57,282 bases of DNA, taken from contig NZ_CAJAXH010000276.1 in NCBI RefSeq assembly GCF_903946935.1, positions 1 through 57,282 of the forward strand. The letters run 5' to 3'. This DNA comes from an uncultured Thiodictyon sp. Lineage in GTDB: Bacteria; Pseudomonadota; Gammaproteobacteria; Chromatiales; Chromatiaceae. The stretch's first letter is position 1. Every line of letters starts with the position of its first letter. A program made the translations under genes and the position numbers. The notes under the pieces were generated by a model. That model saw only the letters and a list, made by a program, of their open reading frames with translations, had not been told where the DNA came from and ran no database searches. Positions 34,467-57,282 of the stretch are shown here, piece after piece.

Positions 34467-34512
34467 GGGAGGGTCCTTTCTGGTTCGATTTCTTGATTGG
34501 CAAGCAATGTGA

Positions 34513-34899
34513 TCACCAAATCGTCCTGACAGGGTACTGGATGATCACTCTGTCGGCGGACAGGATCGTCAAGTTATGTGCGATGGCTTGGCAAATCAGC
34601 ATCCGATCGAATGGGTCGCGGTGATGATTTGGCAAACCGCTCAAGCAATAGACCGACCTGCTATCCAGCGGCAGGGTTTCGATTGAATGTAATTGGCATT
34701 GCCGTTGGATGAAGGTCTCCGCATCGGTCGGCAGCGGCAATTTCCCCAGTTGGTGCTTGACGACGATCTCCCAGACGGAAACGCTGCTGAGATAGACCCG
34801 GTTGCCGATGTCGCGAAAGAGCGTCTTGGCGGTTTCGCTCAACTCGGGGGCGTCGGTGGTAAGCCAGAGAAAGGCGCAAGTATCCAGCAGGATGTTCAC
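34513..34899 (-). CDS. PIN-domain toxin (VapC-like)
   Basis: 128-residue PIN-domain RNase. Conserved acidic residues appear in LLDTCAFLWL (Asp6), VSVWEIVVKHQLGKL (Glu about 43) and RDPFDRMLICQAIAHNLTILSAD (Asp about 97 and 115). The spacing matches type II VapC-like toxins that cleave tRNA or rRNA. Its start overlaps the upstream antitoxin stop (ATGA). It lies between hsdS and hsdR of the second R-M locus. Confidence 0.9.
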   Translation of the reverse strand: MNILLDTCAFLWLTTDAPELSETAKTLFRDIGNRVYLSSVSVWEIVVKHQLGKLPLPTDAETFIQRQCQLHSIETLPLDSRSVYCLSGLPNHHRDPFDRMLICQAIAHNLTILSADRVIIQYPVRTIW

Positions 34900-35129
34900 G
34901 ACTTGCCCTCGAACGCATCCAACAGCTCATCCGGGAGCGGTTCAAAAAAACTCGCCGGCACTTGCAACAACCCTTTGGCCAAGCCGATCGGGCGTTGTGT
35001 CGGTGATGGTTCTTGGTCGGCGGCTAATACAATCACCTTGACCTGCTGGCCTTCATGCCAATCCTGGTAAGCAAACGGCAGTTGAATGGCACCGTCCTGA
35101 ACCTGGGCTTCAAATTCGATGGCTTGCAT
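34896..35129 (-). CDS. antitoxin partner of the PIN toxin
   Basis: 77-residue protein reading MQAIEFEAQVQDGAIQLPFA...VKVIVLAAD and ending PLPDELLDAFEGKS. This is like small antitoxins paired with PIN toxins, whose C-terminal LPDELLDAFEG helix wraps the toxin. I start at 35129 because the family begins at MQA(I/L)EFEA. A start at 35195 would add 22 atypical residues. It overlaps the toxin by 4 bases. Confidence 0.8.
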   Translation of the reverse strand: MQAIEFEAQVQDGAIQLPFAYQDWHEGQQVKVIVLAADQEPSPTQRPIGLAKGLLQVPASFFEPLPDELLDAFEGKS

Positions 35130-35285
35130 GGGTATGGTTGCCTCTATAGACAATGACTTTGAACAACCCTGTCCGGTGGGTTCGCTATCCGGCATTGTGC
35201 CTGGGATGGGCGAGCCGCTGGATCACGCGGTATCCACTGACCCCGATCGGGCGGCGAATCCGCTACGCTTCTCCATCCCAGGTAA

Positions 35286-35555
35286 TCAAGCGGGCCAGCC
35301 TTTTTCGGCGTAACCGACGATCTCGTCCGCGCTTCGCGGGTCGAACTCCGGTAATGCGGCACAGCGTTGGCTGATGTCCATGATCGCCGCAAATCGCTCC
35401 TCGGATGACTGCGGGGCCGGTGCGGCGCCCTTTGCCAGAAGCTGCTCCAACAGGAGAATGACCTCTTGGTCGATGGGCCAATGGTGTATGGACGCCCGCT
35501 GCTTTAACCGTTGATGGAGCGTTTCCGGGACATCGTGCAGGGTGATTGTGGGCAT
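35286..35555 (-). CDS. orphan ribbon-helix-helix antitoxin (FitA-like)
   Basis: 89 residues. The N-terminus MPTITLHDVPETLHQRLKQRA followed by WPIDQEVILLLEQLL is an Arc/FitA-type ribbon-helix-helix DNA-binding unit. The C-terminal part (FDPRSADEIVGYAEKGWP) resembles the toxin-binding tail. No PIN toxin follows: the 156 bases to the next antitoxin gene carry only a stop-rich frame. It is therefore an orphan whose toxin was lost. It starts 16 bases after hsdS. Confidence 0.75.
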   Translation of the reverse strand: MPTITLHDVPETLHQRLKQRASIHHWPIDQEVILLLEQLLAKGAAPAPQSSEERFAAIMDISQRCAALPEFDPRSADEIVGYAEKGWPA

Positions 35556-35571
35556 GGTCGCTCTTGCCTGT

Positions 35572-36897
35572 TCATGGGGATGAAGTAAAGTCACAATCGG
35601 TGACGCGCACGGTGCCGGTGAGCAGGTCGTGCATCAGGGATTTCTTGAGGGCGGTGAGGGCGAATCGCTTGGCCTCCAACGCATCGAGCATTCGGTCAGC
35701 CGCCAATGTTAAGCTGACAATCTCCTCCTGTCGCTCTATTGGCGGCACTGGGACGACGATCTGCTTCACATCCCGGTTATTGATCTTGAGTGTCCCATTC
35801 GATGTCTTGGCGCGGCGCAGGATTTGGTTATGGACGATGGGGTGATTCCAAGCGAAGACGGCGAATTCGGGAAGCAGGCGATGGTCGCCGCTATCGCGGA
35901 GTATGACGCGCTTGGCAATGTCGGGATAGATGCAGTCATCGGGGAAGTCTGTGACCCGACCGGCCTTGCCGACAAGGTCCGGGTTAGCATTACCACGCAC
36001 GATCAATATGTCGCCCTTCGATATTCTGAACTTATCCAGAACCTTGGGGTGAACTTCGGCGTATTTCAGGTTCTCGCCATTCGCCAGATCAACCCTGCCA
36101 CCTCGAATTGCGGCAATGCTGAATGTGGGTGATCCTGGTGGCTGAGACGAGCACTTCGGAGATACTCCATTCTTCGGTTCGCCAACAATGAGTGCTTCCA
36201 TGGGAGAAAGCACCCAACCGTTCGGCAGTTTCCGCGATGGCCGGTCGGCGTATGCAGTCACGCCCAAGGCTGCATAGAAGAACTCTTGCACCAAAGCGTT
36301 CTTGAATTGGGCGGCAAGTCTAATTGCATCCCGTGCCCGCTCAATCGCGGTATCCACAGAATCCAGGATGCGGGCGATGGCGGCTTGTTCGCCGGGTGAC
36401 GGAGCAGGAATAGTAAGCTGGCGTATATCACGCTCATTGACCGCCGGATAGTTTGTGCCGCACTGCCACGCAACCATTTGCCTGGTTACCTGCTCTGCAA
36501 ATGGCAGGTACTTCAAGAACTCCGGTTTCATGCCCGCAGCAGCCCGAATTACTGCGAAACCGGTAGAGCAGACGATTGGCCCGCGAAAATCGCACGACGC
36601 AAAGGCATGTGATCCCAGCAAGGGCCGGACAGTGCACAGCAGGACATCACCATTTCGGACCACGCGTCTCGCCCGACTGGGTGCGTCGGCAAATCGGATT
36701 ATAGGTACTGCATTCCAGCTTACTGACCCTGCGTCAACACTGCTGATATCTAGATAGCGAAACTGAAAATCCCCGTCTGTCTGTGCTCCAAGCGTTTCAG
36801 GATTGACAACAGCAAAGCGAGGCGAGTCGAACTGCACCCTGATCCAATCGGCTCTGTAGGTTGCGACAGCGCGCTCAACAGGAGTGTTAAAGTGCAT
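35572..36897 (-). CDS. hsdS: type I specificity subunit (HsdS, second system)
   Basis: 441 residues with two recognition domains. Conserved spacers are PGEQAAIARILDSVDTAIERARDAIRLAAQFKNALVQEFFYA and IERQEEIVSLTLAADRMLDALEAKRFALTALKKSLMHDLLTG, typical of this HsdS group. I start at the ATG at 36897 (MHFNTPVERAVATY). The frame is open further upstream, but only as the shadow of hsdM. The start overlaps the hsdM end by 11 bases. The TRD sequence is AT-richer than hsdM, consistent with exchange of recognition domains. Confidence 0.92.
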   Translation of the reverse strand: MHFNTPVERAVATYRADWIRVQFDSPRFAVVNPETLGAQTDGDFQFRYLDISSVDAGSVSWNAVPIIRFADAPSRARRVVRNGDVLLCTVRPLLGSHAFASCDFRGPIVCSTGFAVIRAAAGMKPEFLKYLPFAEQVTRQMVAWQCGTNYPAVNERDIRQLTIPAPSPGEQAAIARILDSVDTAIERARDAIRLAAQFKNALVQEFFYAALGVTAYADRPSRKLPNGWVLSPMEALIVGEPKNGVSPKCSSQPPGSPTFSIAAIRGGRVDLANGENLKYAEVHPKVLDKFRISKGDILIVRGNANPDLVGKAGRVTDFPDDCIYPDIAKRVILRDSGDHRLLPEFAVFAWNHPIVHNQILRRAKTSNGTLKINNRDVKQIVVPVPPIERQEEIVSLTLAADRMLDALEAKRFALTALKKSLMHDLLTGTVRVTDCDFTSSP

Positions 36898-38923
36898 ATC
36901 CGATTTTACCGAGGAGCTCATGTAGCTCACTACGAGCGTCAAAGAAAATCTGTTCAGCTTTCTGAAGTGCGGCCATTGCATCGGCGACTTCAACCCTCGG
37001 TTCCGGCTCAAACGTATCGACATACCGCGGAATATTGAGATTGAATTCGTTCTCCTCAATCTCATCGATCCCGACGACCCGGGCATGCTTGAGCAATTCA
37101 TCGGGGTCACCGTAGATTGCGCCCAACTCGGCGCCGACCACTTCAACATCGCGCCGGTCGTCCTCGGCGCGGCGGCGGGCCGCGGCGATCTTCTCGTCGC
37201 GCTCGGCCACCTTGGCGGCGGCCCGGTCGCGCTGGGCCTGGAGCCGGACGAGCGCGGTCTGCGCCTTATCCCTGATAGCCCCGGCGGTGAGCCTGGCCAG
37301 CGCCGCACTGTCCTTGGTCAGTTGGGTCTCCAGCCGGGTGAGCGTGTCGGCCCAGTCGGCGTATTCGGCCTCCAGACGTTCCACCTCGTCGGTTTCGCGG
37401 GCGTCGATCTGTTTGCCGATACGAAGGCGGTGCCGGGCCACCAGGTCCGGCACCTTGGCCGGGTCGCCATAGGCGTGTGCATGCACCAGAATGCGCATCA
37501 CGTCCTGCGGGCGGAGTTCGTTCTGATTGGAGAGCTCGCGGTAGTGGCGGGCGGCATAGACCAGCAACACCTGTTCGTGCCGCGCGGGCGGGCGCTGCTT
37601 CTTGAGGATCAGCAGGCAGGCCGGCACGCCCGCGCCGTAGAAGCAATTGAGCGGCAGCGAGATCACTGCGTCGATGAGCCGAGATTCCAGCAGTGCGCGG
37701 CGGATCAGGTGCTCGTCGTCGGCCTTGCGGCGTTTGATCTTGGGGTTGCCCTCGTCATCGAACTCGCCGGTCTCCTCCTCCACCTCGGGCTGACCGCGAA
37801 ACAGGACCCCCTGCGGGCAGACGACACCGGCGCGGCCCGTGTCGGTGAGCGAGGCGAGGCAGTGCAGGATGAAGGCATAGTCCCCATAGCCGGCGGGCGG
37901 GGCCTTGAAGGCGGTGCCGCGCCCGAAGCGCCCGAAGGGGTCTTTGTAGCCTTCTTTGCCGAAGGTCTCCTTTTTCAGCTTGTCCTTCTTTTTCTTGTCG
38001 TCCGTCTGGAATTCGGGCTTGAGCCACCAGAACTCGTCGGAAAAGGGGAAATTGGCCAGTACCAGCGAGAACTTGCGCACCTTGCCCGCGGCCCGAAAGG
38101 CGGGGTCGGTGATGGTACTGGCGCCCGCGACAATCTGCGCCTCCAGCCCGTGCAGCACTGAGTTGATCTTGCCGATGGCGGCGTTGCTCCAGTTCATCTC
38201 CTGGCCGAAATACTGGGCCGAGGTGGGTCGGTGACCCTGCTCGCGCAGGAAGTCGGCCGAATGGACCAGCATGCCGCCGCTGCCGCAGGTGGGGTCATAG
38301 ATGGTGTCGCCGGGCTGTGGCTCCAGGATATGCACCAGGGTGTCCACGACCTCGGGCGGGGTGAAGAATTCGCCGGCCTTGGCCCCGGCATCGTCGGCGA
38401 ATTTCTTCAGCAGATATTGGTAGGCGCCGCCCAGCACGTCGGGGGGCACGCTGGCGTTGGACAGATCGTGGCTGTTGAAGTGCTGGATCAGGGCGTGGAC
38501 CACCTCGTTGGGGATGAGCGGGCGGCCAGACCCGTCGGGGGCCGGCTGGTTCCAGTCCACGGTGAAGACGCCTTTGAGTTCCTCGTTGGCGTCGGCGACG
38601 GCGCGCATGGCCAGGGTGAGTTCTTCGCCCAGGTTGACCGACACGGCCAGGATGTCGCCCCAGCGACAGTCCGCGGGGATGAAAAATCGGTGTGCGCCGC
38701 GGGCGCGGAAGACGGCCTTCTGTTGCTCGGTGAAGGCGCGCCCTTGCTGGCGCTCAAGCTCCGCGATGGCCTCGTCCGCCTCGTTCTCCCACTGATCGCA
38801 CAGGCGCTTATAGAACATCAGCGAGAGGATGTAGTTCTTGTAGTCCTGGCCGGCGGTCTTGCCGCGCAGGATGTTGGCCGCGCCCCAGAGGTGGGCTTCG
38901 AGTTGTCGTTGGGTGAGTCTCAT
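36887..38923 (-). CDS. hsdM: type I DNA methyltransferase M subunit (second system)
   Basis: 678-residue HsdM. The N-terminal domain starts MRLTQRQLEAHLWGAANILRG...YKNYILSLMFYKRLCDQW. AGEFFTPPEVVDTLV precedes motif I DPTCGSGGM (about 207-215), and motif IV reads ANFPFSDEFWW (about 290), a variant of NPPF. The C-terminal 180 residues contain a long charged helical region (about residues 520-600, LTRLETQLTKDSAALARL and RAAAKVAERDEKIAAARRRAEDD) that probably contacts HsdS. It appears complete and overlaps hsdS. Confidence 0.93.
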   Translation of the reverse strand: MRLTQRQLEAHLWGAANILRGKTAGQDYKNYILSLMFYKRLCDQWENEADEAIAELERQQGRAFTEQQKAVFRARGAHRFFIPADCRWGDILAVSVNLGEELTLAMRAVADANEELKGVFTVDWNQPAPDGSGRPLIPNEVVHALIQHFNSHDLSNASVPPDVLGGAYQYLLKKFADDAGAKAGEFFTPPEVVDTLVHILEPQPGDTIYDPTCGSGGMLVHSADFLREQGHRPTSAQYFGQEMNWSNAAIGKINSVLHGLEAQIVAGASTITDPAFRAAGKVRKFSLVLANFPFSDEFWWLKPEFQTDDKKKKDKLKKETFGKEGYKDPFGRFGRGTAFKAPPAGYGDYAFILHCLASLTDTGRAGVVCPQGVLFRGQPEVEEETGEFDDEGNPKIKRRKADDEHLIRRALLESRLIDAVISLPLNCFYGAGVPACLLILKKQRPPARHEQVLLVYAARHYRELSNQNELRPQDVMRILVHAHAYGDPAKVPDLVARHRLRIGKQIDARETDEVERLEAEYADWADTLTRLETQLTKDSAALARLTAGAIRDKAQTALVRLQAQRDRAAAKVAERDEKIAAARRRAEDDRRDVEVVGAELGAIYGDPDELLKHARVVGIDEIEENEFNLNIPRYVDTFEPEPRVEVADAMAALQKAEQIFFDARSELHELLGKIGYAL

Positions 38924-45565: not shown

Positions 45566-46031
45566 TGGTCAGTCAGTTCAGATCAATTGGGCCGGTCGCC
45601 GCGGCATGTTAAGGCGGGCGGCCCGGCATCGACCAGGGGCGAACCGTGTTCGCGACACGGCGCTGCATCCTCCGGGCACCGCTCAACTACATTGGGGCTC
45701 GCCACGCCCACCCCAACTTAGCTTACGGATGAAGGCATTCAAGAGGCCGTGCGGCGCACTTGCCCGTGTATATTTCTACACGGCCAGTCGGGCGCGTGGC
45801 CGCAAATGCGCTATTCAGCAAGTCCCTGGGCATAAGCTTCAACTGCCACTTCTTAGGTCTTCGAGTGCCGGTGCCCCTTGTTGAAGCCATGGGGCTATAC
45901 TTGCCCCCCCGCTCCGGCTTATACTTAGGCCGACTGCGGGTTCTGCCCTGGGCCACCGGAAGCGCCGATTCTGGTGACCGCAACGGTCGGGCCTTTGTCT
46001 TGCCGTTGCCGGTCAACCCAGAGGGATACAC
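45566..46031. other. intergenic region before the ZorAB-like operon
   Basis: No intact gene. It holds the DUF4276-like fossil at 45781-45830. Two TATACT hexamers (45896-45901 and 45920-45925) could be -10 elements, but neither has a good -35 partner at normal spacing. AGAGGG lies 7 bases before the ATG at 46032. The promoter of the operon must lie here or be shared from further upstream. Confidence 0.5.
45781..45830 (-). repeat. 50-bp fossil matching the DUF4276-like gene, left of the operon
   Basis: About 43 of 50 bases match 55864-55913 in the same orientation, including the 17-base core GCGTGGCCGCAAATGCG. Read on the minus strand it encodes PRDLLNSAFAATRPTGR, against PKDWLNHAFAATHPTGR in the DUF4276-like protein. 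The similarity is therefore a coding remnant. It lies 0.2 kb before the five-gene operon, while the other copy lies 1.0 kb after it. Confidence 0.7.
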
Positions 46032-46787
46032 ATGACCTACTTCGACTCGCTAAACTTCGTGTACCAGCTTGTGTCCGCCAGGCTGGACCTCGTGGTGGTG
46101 CTCTGGGCCTTGATCGCCCTGGTGCTGTCCTTGGTTCTTCTGCACTGGCTGTGGGGTCTGGCCTGGAACACCAGCTGGGGTCTGTTTACCCGCCCGAGCC
46201 TGGCGGCCTTCGGCACCGTCGCGGCGCTGGTCATCGGCAGCTCGGCGCTGTTCTGGCTCGGTGCCGAGCGTGTCGGCACCTGGCTGCAACTGCAGGCCGC
46301 GACGCTGCCGAAACAGATGGCGAGCGATCCCGCGTTACGATACGACATCTTCGTAACCGCCCAGCAACAGTTGGCATTGACCTCTGGCGCGGCCGACAAC
46401 GAGATGGCCCTGCGCAATCGGCGCGACCTGGAGACCCTGGCGCAGACGGCCGCATCGCTGGTGCGCTGCCCGCTGACCCGCTCCGGCCCCCTGGGCCCCG
46501 GCGCCCCCTGTCAGATGCGTAATCCGGACGAGGTGGCCCAGGAGACCCTGCAAGAGATCCCGCCGAAGGCCTTTCCGCTTACCGTGACGGACGACAACCC
46601 CTGGGTGGCCTACGCGGTCACGACCCAGATCCAGGCGGCGTTGAGCGACGCGACCCCCAAGCTGACCGCCGGTGCGGCCGAGTTGCGGATCGTGTTGGCC
46701 GCGCTCTTCTGGATCTTCATTGGCCTGCAGGTCCTGATCGTGCCCATCGCGGCCGTCAGTGACATCCGCGTCCATCCCCAGGTTTGA
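46032..46787 (+). CDS. three-helix membrane protein, first gene of the ZorAB-like operon
   Basis: 251 residues, no recognised family. Predicted membrane helices are about 19-45 (LDLVVVLWALIALVLSLVLL), 58-77 (FGTVAALVIGSSALFWLG) and 219-242 (IVLAALFWIFIGLQVLIVPI). The 140-residue region between helices 2 and 3 is soluble and probably periplasmic. It carries two cysteines (CPLTRSGPLGPGAPC) that could pair. AGAGGG precedes the ATG. The next gene starts 15 bases later, so it should be part of the same membrane complex as the tubulin-like and ZorAB-like proteins. Confidence 0.75.
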   Translation: MTYFDSLNFVYQLVSARLDLVVVLWALIALVLSLVLLHWLWGLAWNTSWGLFTRPSLAAFGTVAALVIGSSALFWLGAERVGTWLQLQAATLPKQMASDPALRYDIFVTAQQQLALTSGAADNEMALRNRRDLETLAQTAASLVRCPLTRSGPLGPGAPCQMRNPDEVAQETLQEIPPKAFPLTVTDDNPWVAYAVTTQIQAALSDATPKLTAGAAELRIVLAALFWIFIGLQVLIVPIAAVSDIRVHPQV

Positions 46788-46802
46788 GAGCAGGGACTGA
46801 CA

Positions 46803-49748
46803 ATGAGAAATCATTTATTCATCGGTTTGGGTGGCCAGGGCGGAAGGACCTTGGGAGAACTGCGCAAGGTTATGGAGCAGCGGGCGAAAGATACGGCGAT
46901 ACTCCGCCGGCAGGGCGTGGGAACGGCGTTTCTCGCGATCGACTCCAGCAATGATGTGCAGAACCACCGGCGCTCCTGGACCGTCTTCGGGACGGATCTG
47001 GCCTTGGACCCGAGAGAATGGCTTATTCTCAAGCGTCCGGGGGCGGCTACCATTGGTGGACTGGCGTTGCGGCCCGACATTGCCCCATGGATCGGAGATA
47101 AGGCACGGGTCGAAGGTTTCCTCAGTCAGCAGAACATTGAGGGCGAGGGCGCCAATCAACTTCGGCGCTTTGGTCGGCTGCTATTTGCCGAAAAGGCGAA
47201 TACGGTGCGCGATGCAGTGATTCAAAAGGTCAATGCCCTGAACACCATAGGCCAGTTCCAGTGTGCCTTCCATCTTTTTGCAACGCTGGCCGGTGGCACC
47301 GGCAGCGGTGGTCTGATCGATCTGGTCACACTGATCCGAACCAAGTATCCCGGCAGCGGTGCTAATCAGTTCCCAATTTACGTTTATGTGTATGTGACCG
47401 ATGCCGATGAACAAGGCGCCAATATCGGCTATTTCTTCCAGAACCAGTTCACGGGACTGCGTGATCTGAACGCGTTGATCTGCGGTCGGCTGCGCCCGCA
47501 CTTGCTCGGCGACGGCATGAACGGCGCCCAGTTCTCCGGCGTGGAACCGATCAACCAGGCCACCATCACTGCCCCATTCAACAGCGCCGGGCATAAGGTT
47601 CTGCTGGATACTCAGATCCGGATTGTCGCCGAGGCATGTTTTGAGCGCATCGTTGCCTGGTCTTCCGGGCAGCTGAGCCCGGCCGGTCAGGCTAGCCTGA
47701 CCGGCCAGGATACTCTGGCGACGTTCCCGGCCGAGCCGTCTGGCCGTCCGGAGCGCAGTTACCGCTTTAGCGCGCTAGGGATGCGCCGTTGGGAGGTGCC
47801 GACCGAACAGATCAAGACCCTGCTGGCGTTGGATCTGCTGGCGAGTGCGCTAAGGCAGATGATATTCAACCACTGGCGCGAGACCAGCGGCTATGTCGAC
47901 CTGCTGCCGGATAGCTCCAGCGCGGCGACTGCCGGCGTGGTGGCTATCCTGCTGGCTGCGATCGAAGATCAGCGGCGACCAGTGCCGAGGGTCGAGGACC
48001 TTACGCAGCGGTTGCGCACGGCCCTCGCCCAATTGGCCGCCGGGCGCGCCCGAGCGCCCGGCGCAGTCCCACCGACCTTGCAGGACATCGAGCGGGCCTT
48101 CAGACAGTTCTACCTGAGCCAGTTCGAGCAAGGCGGAGTCGATGCCCTGATTAGGCAGCGCCGGGGCGACCAGCCGGGCCGGGTGGCCGAGGCAGTACGT
48201 CGGATAGAGGCGATCCTGACGGGGCTTTGGTGGAACCAACCCCTTGCGCTGGCTTGCATTCCGCAGGTGCTTGCGGAATTAGGCGCGCAACTACGCCGCG
48301 ATGGGGAAGAGCCTCCCGTAGCGGATCAGGCTAGCGGGGACCGCCTGCAGCGGATCATTGAGGCTCGCCGCATGGAGTGGGACAAGCTCACTTGGCTCAG
48401 CGCCGGGCTCACCGGCCGGCGCAAGGCGCTGATTACCGCGCATGCGAACGATTGCGGGGGGGTGCATGAGGCGGATCTGCGTCGACGGCTGGCTGAATTG
48501 GACCGCGAGTTCGTCCGAGAACTTGCGGACCGACTGCCGCAGGTGCAGACCCGCTTTCTGTCCGTCCAGCAGGATCTGATGGGGCTGCTTCAGACCGTGG
48601 TGCAGGACCGGGATCAGATCGATCAGGAATTGCGTGCGCTCGCACAGAACGTCACCGCGAACCGGTATGAGTTCGACCCGGCGGCACTGGACACCTTCCT
48701 GACCTGGATGCGCTGCCACAAGCATCATCAGCAAACCGCGGCGGCCCTGATGCGTGCTGAGGTCGTGACGGTCATCGGCAGTCAACAAACCCTCGCATCC
48801 ATGAGTAATACTAGGGACGCACTGACCACCATTGAAGACGCGTTGCGGCCCCTCGCCAGGCAGCAGGCGGAACAGATCCATCTGGACTACGCGGCCAATG
48901 GGCAGGGGCAGCCGATTCTCGAGGACTCTGTGCTCGACATCCTGCAAGGACGCTATACGGCGAATCGTCCAGCGTTTCTCGCTGAATTGCAGGTTTTTCT
49001 CGGCCAGGCCGCGGTCGCGCTGCTTCTGCGCAACGATATCCAGCCGATGCAATTGCTCGGCGCGGGGACCGGAGTCCCGCACATGCCACGGCGGCTGCTG
49101 GTGATCGGCCTGCCACGCCACCCGTTCGGGCCGACCTTGGAACAGGAATTCATCAGGGCCCTGCCCGCGGGCGATAACCGCCTGCTTGAGGTCTTTGACC
49201 ATGACGACCCGGGACAGATCCGCCTGTTGACGATCGACTACTGGCTCGCCGCCCGCTTTGCCACGGTGGTCAAGGCCCTCGGTGATCGCTATCAGGAGAC
49301 CACCCAAGGCGCGCGCAATCCGGACACGATTTACTTCTGTAATATCGATCCACCCGGCGAGCAGGGTCTTCGGCCAGACGTGTTCCTTCCCGATGACGCG
49401 ACGTTGCGGTTGCGCTACGCGGCCGAACTCTGGCTCGGGCAGCACTCCGATATCGGCGCCGTTCTGGTCGATGAGCACGGCGTGTTCCTGATCTACGAGG
49501 ACACCGACGGGCGCCATGCCGAACCGCTCGGTTTGACTCTGGAGGATGCCATCGCCGGTCCGGACTACGGCAAGATGTTCATGCTGCATGCGCGTCTTGG
49601 GCAGGCCCTCGCTGGCATCGGCCGGCAACGGCTGGCCGACATGCTCAATCAACAACGTCTGGAGATGGACAAGCAGCACGGCCTGACCTCGCCCGAATAT
49701 CAGCGCTGGGACCGGATGCTGACGCTGCTAAAACCACTGGCGGACTGA
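46803..49748 (+). CDS. tubulin/FtsZ-like GTPase (Tubulin_2 type), large
   Basis: 981-residue protein. The N-terminal strand and loop HLFIGLGGQGGRTLGELRK (GLGGQGGR at 8-15) and the tubulin-type signature LAGGTGSGG (G164-G170, as in tubulin GGGTGSG) mark a GTP-binding tubulin-superfamily domain in about the first 400 residues. They match the bacterial Tubulin_2 group. The remaining 550 residues are mostly helical, with coiled-coil-like stretches (about 530-640), and have no family I know. It has no membrane helix and is thus cytoplasmic. Gene 3 starts one base after its stop. It may assemble filaments or act as a nucleotide switch for the membrane complex. Nucleotide type and polymerisation are inferred. 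Confidence 0.85.
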   Translation: MRNHLFIGLGGQGGRTLGELRKVMEQRAKDTAILRRQGVGTAFLAIDSSNDVQNHRRSWTVFGTDLALDPREWLILKRPGAATIGGLALRPDIAPWIGDKARVEGFLSQQNIEGEGANQLRRFGRLLFAEKANTVRDAVIQKVNALNTIGQFQCAFHLFATLAGGTGSGGLIDLVTLIRTKYPGSGANQFPIYVYVYVTDADEQGANIGYFFQNQFTGLRDLNALICGRLRPHLLGDGMNGAQFSGVEPINQATITAPFNSAGHKVLLDTQIRIVAEACFERIVAWSSGQLSPAGQASLTGQDTLATFPAEPSGRPERSYRFSALGMRRWEVPTEQIKTLLALDLLASALRQMIFNHWRETSGYVDLLPDSSSAATAGVVAILLAAIEDQRRPVPRVEDLTQRLRTALAQLAAGRARAPGAVPPTLQDIERAFRQFYLSQFEQGGVDALIRQRRGDQPGRVAEAVRRIEAILTGLWWNQPLALACIPQVLAELGAQLRRDGEEPPVADQASGDRLQRIIEARRMEWDKLTWLSAGLTGRRKALITAHANDCGGVHEADLRRRLAELDREFVRELADRLPQVQTRFLSVQQDLMGLLQTVVQDRDQIDQELRALAQNVTANRYEFDPAALDTFLTWMRCHKHHQQTAAALMRAEVVTVIGSQQTLASMSNTRDALTTIEDALRPLARQQAEQIHLDYAANGQGQPILEDSVLDILQGRYTANRPAFLAELQVFLGQAAVALLLRNDIQPMQLLGAGTGVPHMPRRLLVIGLPRHPFGPTLEQEFIRALPAGDNRLLEVFDHDDPGQIRLLTIDYWLAARFATVVKALGDRYQETTQGARNPDTIYFCNIDPPGEQGLRPDVFLPDDATLRLRYAAELWLGQHSDIGAVLVDEHGVFLIYEDTDGRHAEPLGLTLEDAIAGPDYGKMFMLHARLGQALAGIGRQRLADMLNQQRLEMDKQHGLTSPEYQRWDRMLTLLKPLAD

Positions 49749-49749
49749 C

Positions 49750-51705
49750 ATGGGCCACTACTTCCGCTGCGAGGAGCCGAGCGGCCAATGTGAACATGCG
49801 CGTACCCGCGCGGTGCTGGTCGACGAGCCCGGAGTGTGTCCCCGGGGCCATCCGGATTGCGCGCAATGGCGCCGGCCGGTACCGCTGCTGACGGCACTAC
49901 GAGAGCGCTATCCGGCGCCGTTCTGGGCCATGGCCGGGCTGGTCGGACTGCTCATGATGGCGCTGTTGCTGTCGTTGTTGTTCGGTGGTAATCGCTGGCG
50001 CGACGACCACGACCGACTGCACGCGGAACTTACCGGGCTTAATGACCGGTTGAAGGGGTTGGAGGCGCCGATCCCCAAACGGCCTGGTCCGGGTCAGGGT
50101 TGGGACGAAATGCGGCGTACTGCCCAAGACCTGCGGGACGATGCGACCAAGGCGGTCACTGCCCGGGATACGACGAAGGCATCCGAGTTGCGGGCGCGCT
50201 TGGAAGACCTGGAGCAGCAACGGCAGGCACTGCTCGGAGCCGCTGGACCGAGTGCCAAAAGCGCTGGGGTACAGGCGATAGCCAAGCGATTGGTCGGGGA
50301 CTACCAGACCTTGAAGACCGGCCTTGCAGCCGCCGAGGCCGCCGCGCCACCCGATGATGCGGATGCACGACACGCCTTCCGAACCCTGTTGGTGGACGTG
50401 GATAGGGGCCTCAAACGGGCACAGCGTTTGGCGGGGCCCGCACCCCCTCCACCGGCACCAGATCCCCAATTGATCGACACCTTGAATGGCGCGCTGGCCG
50501 CCGCCCGGGATGGTGTCGATACCCTGTCGGCCTCGGCGATCATCGCCACCAGCCCGGTGCTGGCCCAGGCACTGGTGCTACCCTTGCTGGAGGCCCATGC
50601 CCCCGGCAGCACCATCCGAACGGCGTCGGACGCCCAACACTGGTTCGTTGCGAGTCACGACCCGGTGATCGCCCCCGGCGTTTTGGTCAGTGTTGCGGAC
50701 CCCGATCCCTATCGCCCACTGCTCGCCGGGCGTGCCGATCTGGTCATTGCCGACCAAGCCCCAGACAAGCAGACCCAGGCAGAGTTCAGCGCACGCTTTC
50801 CTGGTCAGGCGATGACCGCGCGCGACCACGCCGCGGTCATCGCGCTGGACGCCGTTGCGCTGCTGGGACATCCCGCGCGCGCCAATACCCCGGTGACGAA
50901 CCTGCGCCTGAGCAGTTGGGGCACGGACGCCGCATCCGCGCCGGTGATTGCGCGGCTCGCGCCGTCCCTGGCCCTGAGCGTCGTCGCGGACCCTTTCACA
51001 GCGGTACAGTCGGACCCTGGTGCCCTGAGCGCCGTGCTCCATCACCAATGGCAACGGCACCCGGCTGGCCAATTGCTCGCCTACCAACCATCGCGAGAAG
51101 CCCCGGCACTGAAGCCCAGCGACTTCTCCATCGGCACCGAGAACTACCCGCTGTGCTATCGCGTGTTGGCGACGTGCTCTCCTGGTTCGCGACAGTCCGC
51201 CAGGGACCTGATGACCTGGATTGCGTCCGACGTCGGGCAGTCTGCGGTGAAGGCCGCGGGTTTCGTCGACCGGCGTCTGCTGACTTCCCCAGGTGGCTCG
51301 CCGACAAACCCGCTGATCCTCTCGGCCTTGGGGAGTGCGGTCGGGCACAAGGTGGCCAGCGCGGAGCAGTATCCGACCAATCTGCGTTTTGCGTTTGACG
51401 TGGCGGAACTGGATCTCAAGGCCCAGGCAGACGTGGAACGTCTTAGCGGGCCATTGCAGTCCAGGACCGCACACGGGGCCAAGGTTGTTATTCTGGGCTT
51501 TGCCGACGCCATCGGCGATGAGCAGGAGAACTTTTCGCTGTCCGTCAAGCGCGCCCGGACGGTCGCCGAACGACTGGCGACACTCGGCGTGCAGACCGTC
51601 ACCACCGGGCTCGGCGAGGAACTGCCCGTGGATACCAATGACACCGAGGCGGGCCGGGCGCGCAACCGACGCGCCGAGGTCTGGGTGGTGGAGCCTGGAC
51701 AGTAG
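49750..51705 (+). CDS. Cys4-TM-coiled coil-binding protein-like-OmpA protein
   Basis: 651 residues with an unusual order. C7-X6-C14 and C30-X6-C37 may form a zinc cluster at the cytoplasmic N-terminus. One membrane helix follows (about 58-78), then a helical, coiled-coil-like part (about 84-200) and a proline-rich hinge (APPPPAPDPQ). A periplasmic-binding-protein-like domain (about 245-510, with IIATSPVLAQALVLPLLEA and SFSIGTENYPL-type features) comes next. Last is an OmpA-like peptidoglycan-binding domain (about 545-645: VVILGFADAIGDEQENFSLSVKRARTV then GRARNRRAEVWV). PstS-like/OmpA combinations exist, but the Cys4 end plus TM is new to me. It could relay a periplasmic signal to the tubulin-like protein. 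Confidence 0.82.
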   Translation: MGHYFRCEEPSGQCEHARTRAVLVDEPGVCPRGHPDCAQWRRPVPLLTALRERYPAPFWAMAGLVGLLMMALLLSLLFGGNRWRDDHDRLHAELTGLNDRLKGLEAPIPKRPGPGQGWDEMRRTAQDLRDDATKAVTARDTTKASELRARLEDLEQQRQALLGAAGPSAKSAGVQAIAKRLVGDYQTLKTGLAAAEAAAPPDDADARHAFRTLLVDVDRGLKRAQRLAGPAPPPPAPDPQLIDTLNGALAAARDGVDTLSASAIIATSPVLAQALVLPLLEAHAPGSTIRTASDAQHWFVASHDPVIAPGVLVSVADPDPYRPLLAGRADLVIADQAPDKQTQAEFSARFPGQAMTARDHAAVIALDAVALLGHPARANTPVTNLRLSSWGTDAASAPVIARLAPSLALSVVADPFTAVQSDPGALSAVLHHQWQRHPAGQLLAYQPSREAPALKPSDFSIGTENYPLCYRVLATCSPGSRQSARDLMTWIASDVGQSAVKAAGFVDRRLLTSPGGSPTNPLILSALGSAVGHKVASAEQYPTNLRFAFDVAELDLKAQADVERLSGPLQSRTAHGAKVVILGFADAIGDEQENFSLSVKRARTVAERLATLGVQTVTTGLGEELPVDTNDTEAGRARNRRAEVWVVEPGQ

Positions 51706-51719
51706 CGGAGCAGCGCAGC

Positions 51720-53834
51720 ATGGATCAGTCAGCATTGGGAGCCTTGCCGATCTCCCTGTCAATTTTGGTTGGCGCTATCGGTCTGGTTGGCATCGTCGCC
51801 GCTTGGCTGGCGTATAAGGGTATCGATGCGGAACGGGATGCACTGCGTCGCGGAAGCCTTGGGCTAGAGGATGTACCCGATTCTGATGAGAAATACGATT
51901 ACCGCGGATGGCTGAAGGAGCGGCGCCTCGACGACTCCCACTTCGGGGACCACGTGCGTGCCGCCGCGGATGCGCGCCGCTCTAGTCGTGCTATTTCCCT
52001 GCAGGAGTTGCATCAGGTCTCCGCACGCCGTGAGGCGCGACGGGGCTCGGCGCGGGTGTCAGGTGGGATTGCCGGGTTGCTTCTGGTCTGCGGAATCGCA
52101 GGCACCCTGTTCTGTATCAAGCCGGTCTTGAGAGATTTCGACATCACGGCTGACCAAAGAAATGGGGAGACCCAACAGGCAATCAAAGCGAGTTCGGCTG
52201 TCGGTAAGGCCGAGGGCGGACAGTCATCCTCTGGACCAGGCGGCATTAATAATGCCAAAAATCTGATCCATGACCTGAGCCAGGCCTTCCTTCCGAGCCT
52301 CTGGGCACTGGTGCTGACCGTCATCGTCGCCATGGTACGTGGGCTCTATACCCACAACCGCGGCACCCTCGCTGGGGAATTGGACCAACTGGACTTGGAA
52401 GACTTGTTCGCGCGCTTCCCGCCCCCGTCGCTCAGTCGGGAGCTCGATGGCGTCAGGGCTCAACTGGCGGACCTGACGGCCCAGATGCTCGCCAGTCAGC
52501 GCAACCTCGATGGCTTCGTACAGCGGCTCACCGACGCGGCGCAGGGCTTCCAGAATAACGCACCGCCGTTGCAGGAGGCATCGAATCGCTTTGTCGGGGG
52601 CGTCAAGCATCTCGCCCCCAGGCTCGATATCCTCAGCAAGACCATCGCTGATCATCTGGGACCGACGGCGCCCGTGGTCAGCCGGTTCGATGGCCTGCTC
52701 GCTGTGGCCACTGATGTGAACAAGGCGGCGGCGCAGATGCAGACGGCCGGAGCGATACTGTCCGAACACCTGTCAGCGTCTCATCGGCTGCTGAAGGACA
52801 CGACGGATGCGCTGCCGGCACAGTTCCAGGCCGCCTGTCAGTCCGCGAGCGGTGTGATTGCACAGGCGGCGAGTCATGCATTGGCGACGGCCTGTCAGGA
52901 CGCGGTGGCGCGCCTGGATGCCGCCGCACTGCCATTGCGTGATGCAGCGCAGTCGGTTGCGGCCGAAAACCGCGCGCTGAAGGCCGATACCAGCCAGACA
53001 ATCGCCAATCTGACCCGCTCGGTCGAGGCCCTGTGCGATGCCACCACCAAGGGTATGCGGACCGACCTGAATACGGGCCTTGATGCCGCCACCGGGCGCG
53101 TGGACAGCCTGCTGACGGCGACGGCGAGCCAGGTTCGTGCCAGCCTGAACGACGCTCAACAGGGGTTCCGCGAGGCCCTTCATGTGGCGCTGGCGGCTAT
53201 CACGAACCTTCACAGCAGCGCCAACGACGCGATCACGCGGGTCGCCGACTCGGTGGGTCGGCTGGAACAGGTCCAGACTCGGATCGATGCCGCACTTCAG
53301 GCGTCCTCGCAGACCCGGGATGTGATGGTCGAGGCGCGCGGTGACATCGTTGCCGCCAGCGACCTGACCACGGAACAACTCGCCAACGCTCAACAGGGCC
53401 TGGCCGACATGCAGCAGACCGCCGCCGTAACCGCCGAGCGACTCGCCGGGCTCACCGCCCACATCGGCAAGCTCACCAACGACACTAACACGTTGCGCCC
53501 GGCCGTCGAGACCCTGTTGCGCGCCCAGCAGGAGACCAGCGCCCACATTGAGACCCTGCTGAAGCGCGCGGAGCAGGTCAGTGCCGATTGGCAGCATTGG
53601 CTACCCGAGACGACCCGGCTGCATGAGGCCGGCGCCGCGCTGCATGGCGACCTCGACCGGCTACTGGAGCAGGGCCGCTCGGTCGCCGCGGAACTGGGCG
53701 GCGCGGCCATCGCGGCCGCGGATCAGCAACAACGGCTGGCCCGGGATCTCGAGACCCTGAACGGGGCACTGGAAGGACTCGGCCGACTGGCGGGCCGTGG
53801 GCTGTTCGGACGCATCTTCGGCAGCAGCGAATGA
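51720..53834 (+). CDS. ZorA-like MotA/TolQ/ExbB-class protein with long tail
   Basis: 704 residues. Three membrane helices are predicted: about 10-32 (LPISLSILVGAIGLVGIVAAWL), 113-138 (GGIAGLLLVCGIAGTLFCIK) and 190-211 (FLPSLWALVLTVIVAMVRGL). The G-(I/L)-x-GT(L/F) turn in helix 2 is typical of ZorA/ExbB-type stators. The last helix runs into RGLYTHNRGTLAGELDQLDLEDL and then about 460 residues of Ala/Thr/Gln-rich helix resembling a long coiled coil. ZorA in Zorya anti-phage systems has the same plan: a short channel part with a long cytoplasmic tail. GGAG precedes the start. Partner: the ZorB-like gene 28 bases downstream. Confidence 0.85.
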   Translation: MDQSALGALPISLSILVGAIGLVGIVAAWLAYKGIDAERDALRRGSLGLEDVPDSDEKYDYRGWLKERRLDDSHFGDHVRAAADARRSSRAISLQELHQVSARREARRGSARVSGGIAGLLLVCGIAGTLFCIKPVLRDFDITADQRNGETQQAIKASSAVGKAEGGQSSSGPGGINNAKNLIHDLSQAFLPSLWALVLTVIVAMVRGLYTHNRGTLAGELDQLDLEDLFARFPPPSLSRELDGVRAQLADLTAQMLASQRNLDGFVQRLTDAAQGFQNNAPPLQEASNRFVGGVKHLAPRLDILSKTIADHLGPTAPVVSRFDGLLAVATDVNKAAAQMQTAGAILSEHLSASHRLLKDTTDALPAQFQAACQSASGVIAQAASHALATACQDAVARLDAAALPLRDAAQSVAAENRALKADTSQTIANLTRSVEALCDATTKGMRTDLNTGLDAATGRVDSLLTATASQVRASLNDAQQGFREALHVALAAITNLHSSANDAITRVADSVGRLEQVQTRIDAALQASSQTRDVMVEARGDIVAASDLTTEQLANAQQGLADMQQTAAVTAERLAGLTAHIGKLTNDTNTLRPAVETLLRAQQETSAHIETLLKRAEQVSADWQHWLPETTRLHEAGAALHGDLDRLLEQGRSVAAELGGAAIAAADQQQRLARDLETLNGALEGLGRLAGRGLFGRIFGSSE

Positions 53835-53862
53835 CTGATGCACGGGCAGGGAGACCTGAACC

Positions 53863-54849
53863 ATGATCAGCGACGACGAGGCCGGCCATCAGGTCTCCTA
53901 TTGGCCCAGCGTCAGCGATCTCTTCATGACACTGTTCATCACCGCCATTGCGCTGGTGGCCGTGGTGATGTTCGTGTTTCTGGTAAACCCACGCCCCGGA
54001 GATGTGTTCAAAGGGAGGATCATCGAACTGCGCACGTTGTTGGGCATGGGCTCACTGCCACCTGAGAACGATGAGAAATACAAGGATGCCCTTGCGGAGA
54101 CGCTCAGTCGAGCAATCGCCGAAATCAAGGCATGCGAACAATTTAGAAAGGATGTCGCCGCGCTGGCGATCTGTCAAACGGAGAAGCAGCGGCTAGCGGA
54201 CGAGAACCAGGCACTCAAAGAGCGGCTAATCCAATGTATGAAAGGCCCGGGGAGCCGTTGTGAGGAAGACTTGGCCGATTGCAATAAGCAGCGCCAGGAC
54301 CTTGAGAGGAAGGTCGCAGAGCTTAACGACAAGCCGCCGATCATTACCATTCCCTCGGACGTGCTGTTCCCATCCGGCGGGGCGACGGTGACCGCCGTTG
54401 CCACCGAAAGCCTGCGGACAGGCGGCTTCCAGGAGATCGCCGCTGCAATCGTCAAGCGCAACGCCAATGCCTTGCAGAATGTCAATACGCTGGAGATCAT
54501 CGGGCACACCGACAGCATGCCGATGAAAGCCAACTGTGGCAACCTGGATGGGGGGCTGTCGGCAGTGATCGCCGGTACGGCACCCATCGCCAGCTTGCGA
54601 CCGGGTTCCAACAATGACCTAGGCCTGCTACGTGCGCTTGCCATCAAGCAGACCTGGCAGGCGTTCGTCGCGCAGCATTCCGACCACGCGGCCTTGGAAC
54701 AGATACAGGTACGCACCTACTCCGCCGGTCAAACGATTCCGGTTCATCCCACCGGTCCCGCAGACGACGCCGATTCGCGCCGCATCGAACTGCGCCTGAC
54801 CAAGCTCGCCGACCAGAGCGCAAGCAGCGAGGCGTCCCCTGGTCCATGA
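53863..54849 (+). CDS. ZorB-like MotB/OmpA-class protein
   Basis: 328 residues. A single membrane helix (about 18-40) starts SVSDLFMTLFITAIALVAVV. Asp19 sits where MotB and ZorB carry the essential proton-binding Asp. A periplasmic helical linker with six cysteines (for instance IQCMKGPGSRCEEDLADC) leads to an OmpA-like peptidoglycan-binding domain: IPSDVLFPSG, IIGHTDSMPM (G214-D217), NNDLGLLRALAI and ADSRRIELRLT. This should form the ion-conducting stator with the ZorA-like protein. It is the last gene of the operon. No ZorC, ZorD or ZorE follows. Confidence 0.87.
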   Translation: MISDDEAGHQVSYWPSVSDLFMTLFITAIALVAVVMFVFLVNPRPGDVFKGRIIELRTLLGMGSLPPENDEKYKDALAETLSRAIAEIKACEQFRKDVAALAICQTEKQRLADENQALKERLIQCMKGPGSRCEEDLADCNKQRQDLERKVAELNDKPPIITIPSDVLFPSGGATVTAVATESLRTGGFQEIAAAIVKRNANALQNVNTLEIIGHTDSMPMKANCGNLDGGLSAVIAGTAPIASLRPGSNNDLGLLRALAIKQTWQAFVAQHSDHAALEQIQVRTYSAGQTIPVHPTGPADDADSRRIELRLTKLADQSASSEASPGP

Positions 54850-54888: not shown

Positions 54889-55296
54889 TCAATCCAACTC
54901 CGGAACGCAATGCAATCCGTAGGCGCGAAAGTCTCCATCAATGGCAAGGCATAACGCTATACCAGCCCGTTTGACGAATGCAAAGCTGGTACAATCGGTG
55001 AAGCTGAATGATTTGTCCCGATAGCGAGAGAAGATCGTCCAGGCGGTATCTTCATCCTGCGGTGTGATGGGTTCCATCTGCGCGACCCGGTTTGCTCGTA
55101 ACTGGTCGCCGAGGCGACTGGCCACTTCCCAACCCAAGCGATAGCGGGTTAGCGTGATGATTTCATCGAAGACGTAATTGCTGGTAACCAGTCGCCCTCG
55201 GTACTCGCGAAAACAGGTGGCAACGCGCGCGTGGTCCGGGTCGTCAGCATCGACGAGGGCGTACCAGGCGCCGGTATCGACGAAGACCCGTTTCAC
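54889..55296 (-). CDS. PIN-domain toxin
   Basis: 135-residue PIN-domain RNase. Acidic residues are seen in VFVDTGAWYALVDADDPDH (Asp7), SNYVFDEIITLTRYR (Glu about 46) and SFSFTDCTSFAFVKRAGIALCLAIDGDF (Asp about 100 and 119). The VFVDTGAWYAL-type start is common in chromosomal VapC-like toxins. The start overlaps the antitoxin stop by 4 bases. It converges with the ZorB-like gene. Confidence 0.9.
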   Translation of the reverse strand: MKRVFVDTGAWYALVDADDPDHARVATCFREYRGRLVTSNYVFDEIITLTRYRLGWEVASRLGDQLRANRVAQMEPITPQDEDTAWTIFSRYRDKSFSFTDCTSFAFVKRAGIALCLAIDGDFRAYGLHCVPELD

Positions 55297-55529
55297 GAAC
55301 GATCGCGGCCATAGAGATAATGGTTATGTTCGCGACCGATGGGCTCTCCGCCTCCGTGTGCGATGCCGGTAATGGCAGCGAGCGGGTCCTCGGGCTCCGG
55401 GGTGGGGCACCGGAGGTAATCGTCAACCAACTGCCGGATCAGCGCCGACGCGCTGATCCCGAGTCGTTGTGCCTCCTGTCCTAATTTGCGGTATTGGTCT
55501 GGTTCGAGTGAAATCTGTGTGCGGTGCAT
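55293..55529 (-). CDS. ribbon-helix-helix antitoxin of the PIN toxin
   Basis: 78 residues. MHRTQISLEPDQYRKLGQEAQRLGISASALIRQLVDDYL is a CopG/RHH DNA-binding unit, and the C-terminal tail (HGGGEPIGREHNHYLYGRDRS) probably binds the toxin. GGAGC lies 11 bases before the ATG at 55529, which supports this start over a longer frame. It likely represses its own operon. Confidence 0.88.
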   Translation of the reverse strand: MHRTQISLEPDQYRKLGQEAQRLGISASALIRQLVDDYLRCPTPEPEDPLAAITGIAHGGGEPIGREHNHYLYGRDRS

Positions 55530-55721
55530 CGAAATGTGCTCCTTAGGCTCTTGTCTCGCGAACGCTACTGCTTCGCGTCGCTTGGTGCAAGCGGGATACG
55601 CCAGTCGGGAGCGCCTCCCCAGGCCTCCCAAGAGCCGCATCCACCACACGAAACTGCCGAGCTAGGGCGCTCGTACGGGCTGTGGAGGAAGTTCCAGACC
55701 TTCGGATCACCGAGGTGGCAC

Positions 55722-56090
55722 TCATGGCAGAATCCGCAGTTGTCGCAGGGCCTCCCCTAACTCGTCCTCCAGCGCAGCGAAGGCGGTGAGTCGGCGCAGC
55801 AGTGGCAGGGACACGTGTTCTGCCAAGGCATTTAATAGGGGCGAGATGCCCTGTTTGCGAGGGCGGCCGGTCGGATGCGTGGCCGCAAATGCGTGATTCA
55901 GCCAGTCCTTGGGATCCGATACTGCCTCAACAGCGCTGGCCGACGGCGGCAATCCCAAGGCGGTATCCGTCAGCGTGCTCCCCAAGACGTTGGATAGAGC
56001 ATTGCCATCGACCAGTGCCCACGCCTCGGTTTCGCGAATAGGGATGACAGCCACCCCGCTACCGGTTTCCGAAAATTCCAAATAATGCAT
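55722..56090 (-). pseudogene. DUF4276-like protein, N-terminally truncated
   Basis: 122 residues. VAVIPIRETEAWALVDGNAL and SDPKDWLNHAFAATHPTGRPRKQ resemble the middle and C-terminal parts of DUF4276/TOPRIM-like proteins (P-RxTEAWLLxD; DPK). These are often encoded after an AAA-ATPase, as here: the ATG is two bases after the ATPase frame ends. Family members are usually near 200 residues, with an N-terminal acidic TOPRIM motif, which is missing. The ORF is therefore probably non-functional, though it could be a short variant. Confidence 0.55.
55864..55913 (-). repeat. 50-bp match to the fossil left of the operon
   Basis: Partner of 45781-45830, same orientation, about 43 of 50 identical. It lies within the DUF4276-like gene, encoding PKDWLNHAFAATHPTGR. 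Confidence 0.7.
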
Positions 56091-56092
56091 AG

Positions 56093-57040
56093 TCAGCCCT
56101 CCGTGTTCACGGTTTTCAGCACCCTCTTAACCTCAAAGTCGGAGACGAAACTCTGTGACACAGTATTGTCGCTAAACAGGGTGAGTTGGTTCGCCGATGC
56201 CAGCGGGCGCAGACGGGTTCAGCGCCGTTGTTCTTTCTTTTCGGGATCGCTGACGGTGGCGGTGTCCGCAAACAGGATGGAGCCCTGGATTGGGCTGAGG
56301 GTCTTGTCGATCAATGCGGATCGCACCACTGGCGAGTGGCTGTTCAGGAATAATTGGGTCAAAGGCAGCGTTTCGTCGCCTTCGGCAACCCCCTGGGGAT
56401 CGGTGACCAGGTCCCGCAGGCGCTGGATCAACTGCTTTATCCGCGCTGGGTGGACCCCGTTTTCGGGCTCTTCAAAGCAGATCAATCCCCGCTGCCGGGG
56501 GTCATGCAAGAGGGTCAGTAGGGCCAGCGCGCGCAAGGTGCCGTCGGAGATCACGCGCTAACTGAAGGGCAAGCCATCGCGCATGGTGAGTTCGATGCGG
56601 TATTCACGACTCGCCTCATGTAACTGCGCGTCCATTCGACCGATCCCGGGGATCAGGTTGTTCAAGTCGGCCGCGATGTCGGTGAGGATACCGCTGGGGT
56701 GGGCCTCGGTCGCCGTCTCGGCCTTCAATCGCGCCAGCACCGCCGCCAGGTTGGAGCCGTCCGCGGCCAAGATATCGGCGGCCGTGGTCGGTACTGGTCG
56801 GCGCAGAAGGGCGGGATCGAGTTGTAGTAAATGCCAGTGGCGCAGCTCTTCGCGCAAGGCGAACAGGTGCGGAAACTCGGCATTGGTGATGCTGGAGAGC
56901 ACCCTTGCCTCTGCCGCACTGGCCGGACGAGTGCGGCCCGGCTTGCCGTCCTGATGCACACTGAAGGTCAGGTCCTCGTCGCGCTCTTCTGTGGTTCAGT
57001 CGACGCGTAAGGAGTGCGCCCCGTCCAGCAGCGACCGCGA
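56093..57040 (-). pseudogene. AAA-family ATPase (AAA_21 type) with in-frame stops
   Basis: One continuous minus-strand frame gives LLDGAHSLRVD-stop-TTEERDEDLTFSVHQDG, then FPHLFALREELRHWHLLQLDP, GLPFS-stop-RVISDGTLRALALL, GLICFEEPENGVHP (Walker B) and LNSHSPVVRS. It continues EQRR-stop-TRLRPLASANQ to a final stop at 56093-56095. The internal stops are TGA at 56996-56998, TAG at 56558-56560 and TGA at 56219-56221. No frameshift is seen between them. The Walker A half is absent: codons beyond about 57040 do not fit. Intact relatives are overcoming-lysogenisation-like or AriA-like ATPases of defence pairs. This copy cannot make a full protein without readthrough. Confidence 0.75.
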
Positions 57041-57083: not shown

Positions 57084-57183
57084 CGCATTGATCGCAGGTT
57101 CACGCGGGCGGGCCAGAATTTTCATCTTTGATGGACGGCTCGCCGGAATGTGTCAATGAAAATGAGACACCGGGGTGTCGAAT

Positions 57184-57282
57184 TTAGTGTTGCTCGGGAG
57201 GCTCTTGGATCTCGGTTAAGCCTGCGGCCGGCGGGTTGATCCAAACCTCTGCGGGAGGCAGCTTGGGTGTCGGCGGTGTGCC
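57184..57282 (-). CDS. C-terminus of an unidentified protein running off the window
   Basis: A minus-strand frame open from the window edge to TAA at 57184-57186 encodes 32 residues, PPTPKLPPAEVWINPPAAGL and so on, proline-rich. There is too little to identify. It may also be non-coding. Confidence 0.3.
   Translation of the reverse strand, partial: GTPPTPKLPPAEVWINPPAAGLTEIQEPPEQH

Follow-up and report, generated by a model that had tools for sequence, protein, structure and literature searches.

The window considered here is a 57,282-nt stretch of contig NZ_CAJAXH010000276.1 (assembly GCF_903946935.1) from an uncultured Thiodictyon sp. of the Chromatiaceae. At 46032 to 54849 it carries five genes, named G1 to G5, that form a real and conserved variant of the operons built around the tubulin-superfamily protein FtsZl1, one in which the tubulin-like GTPase is joined to a stator pair resembling ZorA and ZorB.

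The operon and its products

All five genes lie on the plus strand, to which all coordinates in the operon refer, with intergenic gaps of 15, 1, 14 and 28 bases. G1 (46032..46787) encodes a protein of 251 amino acids (aa) with three transmembrane (TM) helices, delimited by its open reading frame (ORF) and an alignment of the window with 10 relatives. It is followed by G2 (46803..49748; 981 aa), a Tubulin_2/FtsZl1 GTPase with a long C-terminal region identified by PF13809, alignments and a tree, and by G3 (49750..51705; 651 aa), in which Pfam and alignments place a four-cysteine segment, a TM helix, a periplasmic-binding-protein (PBP)-like domain and an OmpA-like domain. G4 (51720..53834; 704 aa) is assigned from alignments and a fold model as a motor A subunit of ZorA/TolQ/ExbB type, and G5 (53863..54849; 328 aa) from PADLOC and an alignment as a motor B subunit of ZorB/MotB type, with one TM helix, a helical stalk and an OmpA-like domain. 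The ORFs bear out the gene count, coordinates, strand and spacing given in an earlier note made from the letters alone; that observation is confirmed as a whole, and its interpretation is supported in part, the tubulin-stator set being conserved and a defence role possible but unproven. Against the nearest relative (locus L032), dN/dS is 0.29, 0.28, 0.29, 0.26 and 0.37 for G1 to G5, so that all five are under purifying selection; a pseudogene operon is thereby ruled out.

G2 matches PF13809 (Tubulin_2) at 107 bits against a cut-off of 27, and the available text of PMC9871819 ties this Pfam model to FtsZl1; by sequence, G2 is the FtsZl1 of Makarova and Koonin (PMC2875224). Proteins of this family are characterised by an N-terminal FtsZ/tubulin GTPase domain with GGTGSG, which G2 has, ahead of a coiled-coil middle and a helical C-terminal domain. 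The T1-type nucleotide loop GLGGQGG (residues 8-14, 46824..46844) is invariant in 11 aligned proteins, as are G164 to G169 of the T4 tubulin signature loop GGTGSGG (residues 164-170, 47292..47312), which aligns to the GGTGSG of beta-tubulin. That beta-tubulin loop is also all that G2 profiles recover from the PDB (best E 0.0097) besides unrelated weak matches. The tubulin-superfamily assignment proposed earlier from the motifs GLGGQGGR and GGTGSGG is upheld.

G5 has its best score for ZorB (PADLOC ZorB1, 43.9 bits; PDLC00608 matched in 9 of 10 proteins). The codon of its stator aspartate, Asp19, lies at 53917..53919; the residue is invariant in 10 of 10 aligned proteins and present in the divergent loci L052, L053 and L055 too. 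An OmpA-like domain (residues 192-303, 54436..54771) is matched by PF00691 at a sub-threshold 22.1 bits, with ZorB1 profiles spanning parts of it, in agreement with the predicted ZorB-like protein with a membrane aspartate and OmpA domain.

G4 consists of a membrane part (residues 13-206) and a helical tail (207-704) that is probably cytoplasmic. Sequence-level comparison with the PDB was uninformative or weak for both proteins: full-length G4 returned coiled-coil and helical-bundle matches with no motor protein in the best 60 of 102, and G5 gave three weak matches, MotB among them at E 0.084. A fold model of G4 residues 1-255 (pLDDT 67, pTM 0.47) was therefore used, and the top 18 of its 50 listed structural matches are all TolQ/ExbB; the predicted fold is of TolQ/ExbB/ZorA type with moderate confidence, and matches to other kinds of protein (designed bundles, Smac, spectrin and others) were taken as common helical arrangements. 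G4 has no match to PF01618 in Pfam, nothing aligned between it and one ExbB-type protein of its own genome, and its tail alone aligned with a second ZorA-like protein. The membrane part aligns to a true ZorA over TM2-TM3, but it matches other membrane proteins equally well, and full-length matches to ZorA models are confined to the tail. Of the ZorA-like channel protein described in the earlier note, the long helical tail stands, and the predicted fold of the channel is of the wider TolQ/ExbB/ZorA type; the expectation that ZorA and ZorB profiles would outscore TolQ/MotB relatives holds for G5, and for the modelled fold of G4 TolQ/ExbB rank above ZorA. G4 and G5 would be the subunits of an ion-driven motor of 5:2 stoichiometry.

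The two remaining proteins have the architectures expected of them. G1 has TM helices at residues 20-38, 56-74 and 220-238, with a middle of about 145 aa that is probably periplasmic; in the alignment of the window with 10 relatives, the stretch separating TM1 from TM2 keeps a WG..WN..W pattern and the protein ends in a short tail that fits DI(K/R)x(N/H)P, and no family matched G1 in Pfam, PADLOC, NCBIfam or PHROG. G3 begins with a zinc-ribbon-like segment (residues 7-37, 49768..49860) holding Cys 7, 14, 30 and 37, of which the first, second and fourth are invariant in 10 aligned proteins and C30 is present in 9 of 10; there follow TM 60-78, a helical stretch, the PBP-like domain and the OmpA-like peptidoglycan-binding domain (residues 547-640, 51388..51669; PF00691, 50.6 bits), which is C-terminal in 10 of 10 aligned proteins. 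Pfam matched SBP_bac_11 in the middle of 5 of the 10 and PBP_like_2 in one, and in L018 the PBP_like_2 domain of a distant G3 relative is clear, at 154.5 bits.

Recurrence, descent and an adjoining nuclease gene

Complete operons with the same gene order number 15, distributed over Chromatiaceae and Verrucomicrobiota (the window, the seven loci L028-L034, L036, L048, L052, L055, L099, L100 and L101), and among their carriers are two named strains, Thiocapsa imhoffii DSM 21303 and Rubritalea profundi SAORIC-165. A scan of genome contigs with the single G2 sequence found nothing; a scan with a G2 alignment, blind to the stator, found 21 loci. Close full-length G2 relatives occur at 11 of these, and 10 of the 11 have all five genes in order, the other (L035) lying on a contig that ends inside G3; L034 and L045 give identical matches, which leaves nine distinct complete loci, and L045 was omitted from the alignment. 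Identity of G2 to ten aligned close relatives is 31-69%, and to the sister-group members aligned 19-23%. In the fetched DNA of the ten sister-group loci, where some contigs are short, neither G4 nor G5 was found, and four have a G3 relative. Searches with G4 profiles added the complete loci L099 and L100, two cut by contig ends (L098 and L053), a fragment of G4 where a contig stops (L054), and three loci that make up a divergent branch (L052, L055 and L101). Tubulin-like and ZorAB-like genes thus stay together in two distantly related bacterial groups, and the five-gene set is very probably a real machine.

The divergent branch varies the theme: L052 carries a pair of G4-like genes and closes with an additional G1-like gene, and L055 has one G4 plus a second G1-like gene. 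Where G3 would be expected in L101 there is a protein of 814 aa with one TM helix, unmatched by the G3 model and equated with G3 by position only. At L101 8531-17204, four G4-like and two G5-like genes stand in tandem in one operon, an arrangement that suggests hetero-oligomeric motors.

When 31 G2 proteins were placed on a tree, the 15 rows linked to a stator formed one clade together with the truncated L035 (UFBoot 100, SH-aLRT 99); the stator label requires one change, and a smaller tree agrees. This count is not free of selection, as five of the 15 rows were found via G4, one is the given window and nine were found blind to the stator; L055 and two outgroup rows are among the long branches. 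The tree supports a single origin of the stator-linked operons. Three Chromatiaceae (the window, a Thiodictyon Loclat bin and Thiocapsa imhoffii) are nested with strong support among Verrucomicrobiota, and this nesting indicates transfer of the operon between phyla. Occurrence is patchy: a close G2 homologue is present in two of eight genomes of the window's genus, and in two overlapping samples of Verrucomicrobiota any G4-search match, not all of them this operon, occurs in 12 of 387 and 14 of 384 genomes.

A gene for an SNase-type nuclease, apparently secreted (signal peptides were read by eye), adjoins six of the 15 operons. In four loci it closely precedes G1, with 17 bases between the ORFs in L033, 23 in L055, and 128 in L048 and L034. 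In L032 it follows G5 after about 250 bases, and in L100 it is upstream in divergent orientation, 346 bases away; L031 retains a 37-residue HhH remnant (68% identical) at the nuclease place. Three of the proteins (L033, L048 and L055) have a Pfam SNase match, and two of these (L033 and L048) match HHH_3 as well. The L032 protein has no Pfam match and was assigned by similarity to the other nucleases, and in L034 the HhH segment gave matches to ComEA and to ComE operon protein 1. A model of five of these proteins independently recovers L100 and the L031 remnant; among loci fetched by then, its sole match outside these operons was a weak one in L026. A small vWA-like protein of about 225 aa, recognised by eye, occurs at L033 7014-7697, L034 1346-2011 and 3161-3835, and L100 1607-2278, and was absent from the other loci fetched by then.

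Known relatives and genomic setting

Each half of the operon has a precedent. FtsZl1 was named, and its operons with OmpA proteins described, in 2010 by Makarova and Koonin, who proposed a role in membrane or envelope remodelling (PMC2875224, available text). Those operons share with the window the protein family and the OmpA-domain and membrane proteins, periplasmic-binding proteins appearing in a reviewer's remark; they differ in their usual vWA, kinase and GTPase partners (a vWA protein is present in the majority), for which Pfam found no counterpart among the five proteins here. The main text available makes no mention of MotA, ExbB, TolQ, flagellar, proton or defense, and the sections available of later papers (PMC5898192, PMC9871819, PMC7159879) give no tested function for FtsZl1. 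Two other FtsZl1 operons in the window's genus (L022 2-11318 and L023 8113-18856) combine a three- or four-TM protein and FtsZl1 with vWA, an FtsX-like permease and a formylglycine-enzyme-like protein, L022 adding an ABC ATPase; the FtsX matches and the L023 vWA match are at or below the Pfam cut-off. Gene content suggests that the TM protein and FtsZl1 are a shared core to which different energy-using membrane parts, ABC/FtsX-like or ion-driven stator, may be attached.

With Zorya (PMC11890865; PDB 8qyd, 8vvn) the operon shares motor A and B subunits, a TM aspartate, a wall-binding-type domain and a long A-subunit tail. Zorya employs the effectors ZorC and ZorD, or ZorE; PADLOC matched none of these among the five proteins, which rules out full Zorya membership. 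In their stead stand the tubulin-like protein, which the earlier note had already put in the effectors' place, the PBP-OmpA arm and the three-TM protein. The predicted fold of G4 residues 1-255 is shared with TolQ/ExbB/MotA motors, but G4 has a long tail and no TonB, TolA or flagellar partner was recognised in the operon, ruling out an ordinary flagellar or Tol/Ton locus. The GTPase-centric conflict systems of Kaur et al. 2020 (PMC7159879, available text) also count a tubulin-family protein among the assembling parts of a predicted conflict system, but are built, unlike this operon, on other GTPases, vWA and HSP70; that text has tubulins and makes no mention of MotA or ExbB. Nor does the available text of a paper on MotAB evolution (PMC12505986) mention tubulin. 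Among the papers listed by our literature search, from which most subscription papers are absent, none joins a tubulin-like protein to a ZorAB-like stator; both parts have been described before, their union in none of the papers listed. The nearest G5 relatives met outside the clade (E 3e-30 and 1.6e-37) belong to rows at L056 6721-12275 and L060 2216-8954, where ZorAB-like genes stand with vWA-like, PP2C and Ser/Thr-kinase genes and no FtsZl1 in the fetched DNA (L056 PP2C and kinase by Pfam, the vWA genes and the L060 set by eye); these are possibly another use of a ZorAB-like stator.

Ten neighbours in the window were scanned with Pfam only. The stretch 31296-38923 holds type I restriction-modification (R-M) genes, 54889-55649 a PIN/RHH pair, and 55678-56976 what look like decayed relatives of an AAA-type ATPase and its small partner gene. 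Relatives of this ATPase and partner stand among genes that look by eye like type I R-M in genus-mate genomes G005 and G007. The relative in L014 has CHAT and caspase genes next to it. When 47 flanking proteins (41 of the 61 from one group of loci and six from another) were scanned with PADLOC, without a control, the 25 of 65 families listed included mREase_IV (2), PbeA (2), Hhe, Cas6, PDC-S37, DndA, SspA and RT; several of these may be housekeeping look-alikes, and the scan is not used as evidence.

The operon is flanked by a 50-nt direct repeat (45781-45830 and 55864-55913; 86% identical, 10,083 bases apart), which might mark an insertion; its right copy sits among the decayed genes, and, copies of the two places themselves apart, its 15-base core was absent from the other fetched loci. 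The left flank matches genus-mate genomes G003 and G007 up to 45565, the right flank different regions of G004, G005 and G007, and this flank comparison found no clean empty site for the operon. The last 140 or so bases of the window (57136-57282) recur at 98-100% in ten other genome places, some of them contig ends, and probably broke the assembly.

Candidate functions

The best explanation of the whole, to which we give a probability of roughly 0.4, is an envelope-spanning motor-tubulin machine of one evolutionary type whose likeliest use is Zorya-like defence. A G4 pentamer and a G5 dimer would form the motor, with ions passing at Asp19 of G5 between TM2 and TM3 of G4 and the OmpA-like domain of G5 anchoring it to the cell wall. 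G3 would be a second wall-bound arm with its PBP-like domain outside and its zinc ribbon inside, and G1 would link the assembly to cytoplasmic G2. Disturbance of wall or membrane would make the motor turn or change state, and the long G4 tail may relay this signal into the cytoplasm, where G2 would assemble or disassemble at the membrane. Because such a disturbance-sensing motor is accompanied in many relatives by a secreted nuclease, its likeliest use would be to respond when DNA or particles cross the envelope, with the tubulin-like protein as the cytoplasmic arm. The more specific proposal, that the tail of a wall-anchored rotary motor drives or triggers assembly of a tubulin-family GTPase to guard the envelope and that an exported nuclease in many relatives cuts DNA before it reaches the cytoplasm, is rather unlikely in that full form.

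Defence is possible because ZorA and ZorB are among the nearest stator relatives, the nuclease is exported, spread is patchy with transfer, and some neighbours are of defence type; it is ranked first, yet at below even odds. Several observations weigh against it. In the G4 model TolQ/ExbB rank above ZorA in a fold match of moderate confidence, and the G4 hidden Markov model matches four unnamed shorter membrane proteins (L057-L059 and L061) as well as it matches ZorA, and recovers just 3 of the 12 loci brought in by a ZorA model. The nuclease was not found at eight of the 15 operons in fetched locus DNA, nor in a search of the window's whole genome run without a positive control, and is therefore at most accessory. 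Operons in two lineages of the G2 tree have gyrA directly upstream (L029 3064-5718 and L101 3-2096, both by PDB search, and probably L052 18413-19000, by eye), which looks like a settled chromosomal site and not a defence island. A search of 72,556 plasmid records found no close copy of G2 and one distant match (28% over a third of G2), 50,697 phage records held no copy, and an IMG/VR scan with two peptide patterns confirmed none. Finally, the sister FtsZl1 operons with vWA, ABC and FtsX-like proteins fit envelope work as well as defence.

This last point leads to the strongest alternative, on the unlikely side in our estimate: a machine that remodels the membrane or envelope and takes no part in conflict, in which the tubulin-like protein would bend or organise the inner membrane and the stator pull or twist against the wall. 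It accords with the published view of FtsZl1 operons with OmpA-domain and membrane proteins (PMC2875224, available text), with the two sister operons in the genus, with wall-binding-type domains in two subunits, and with the settled look of the gyrA-adjacent copies, of which the L101 operon also precedes a gene read by eye as pnp. The rarity and patchiness of the operon, its transfer between phyla and the repeated link with an exported DNA nuclease speak against it.

Import or processing of DNA or solutes, in which the stator would move a ligand bound by the PBP-like arm while the SNase-HhH protein trims or binds incoming DNA, is improbable: the ComEA-like HhH part, the PBP-like domain of G3 and the predicted TolQ/ExbB-like fold of G4 would suit it, but Pfam recognised none of the five proteins as an outer-membrane receptor, a permease or an arm of TonB/TolA type, the nuclease was not found at the eight operons noted, and the OmpA-like domain of G5 resembles MotB/ZorB, which carry such a domain, and not ExbD/TolR, which do not. 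Chance neighbourhood of an FtsZl1 pair and a Zorya-like pair in the window, which might be entertained as G4/G5-like genes also occur apart (L056, L060) and 10 of the 21 FtsZl1 loci lack a stator in fetched DNA, is refuted by the same gene order in 15 loci of two phyla and by the single clade of the stator-linked rows.

The ion-driven motors MotAB, TolQR, ExbBD, GldLM and ZorAB act on flagella, outer-membrane partners, gliding and defence effectors; to our knowledge, a tubulin-family partner has been reported for none of them. That an exported nuclease, in some cases bearing a ComEA-like domain, recurs beside the operon points to DNA crossing the envelope as the place to look, and with the motor aspartate, the GTP loop and the named strains at hand, what this branch of the tubulin superfamily does can be tested directly. 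If the envelope-spanning motor-tubulin machine is real, it would be a direct link from a stator to a bacterial tubulin-like cytoskeleton.
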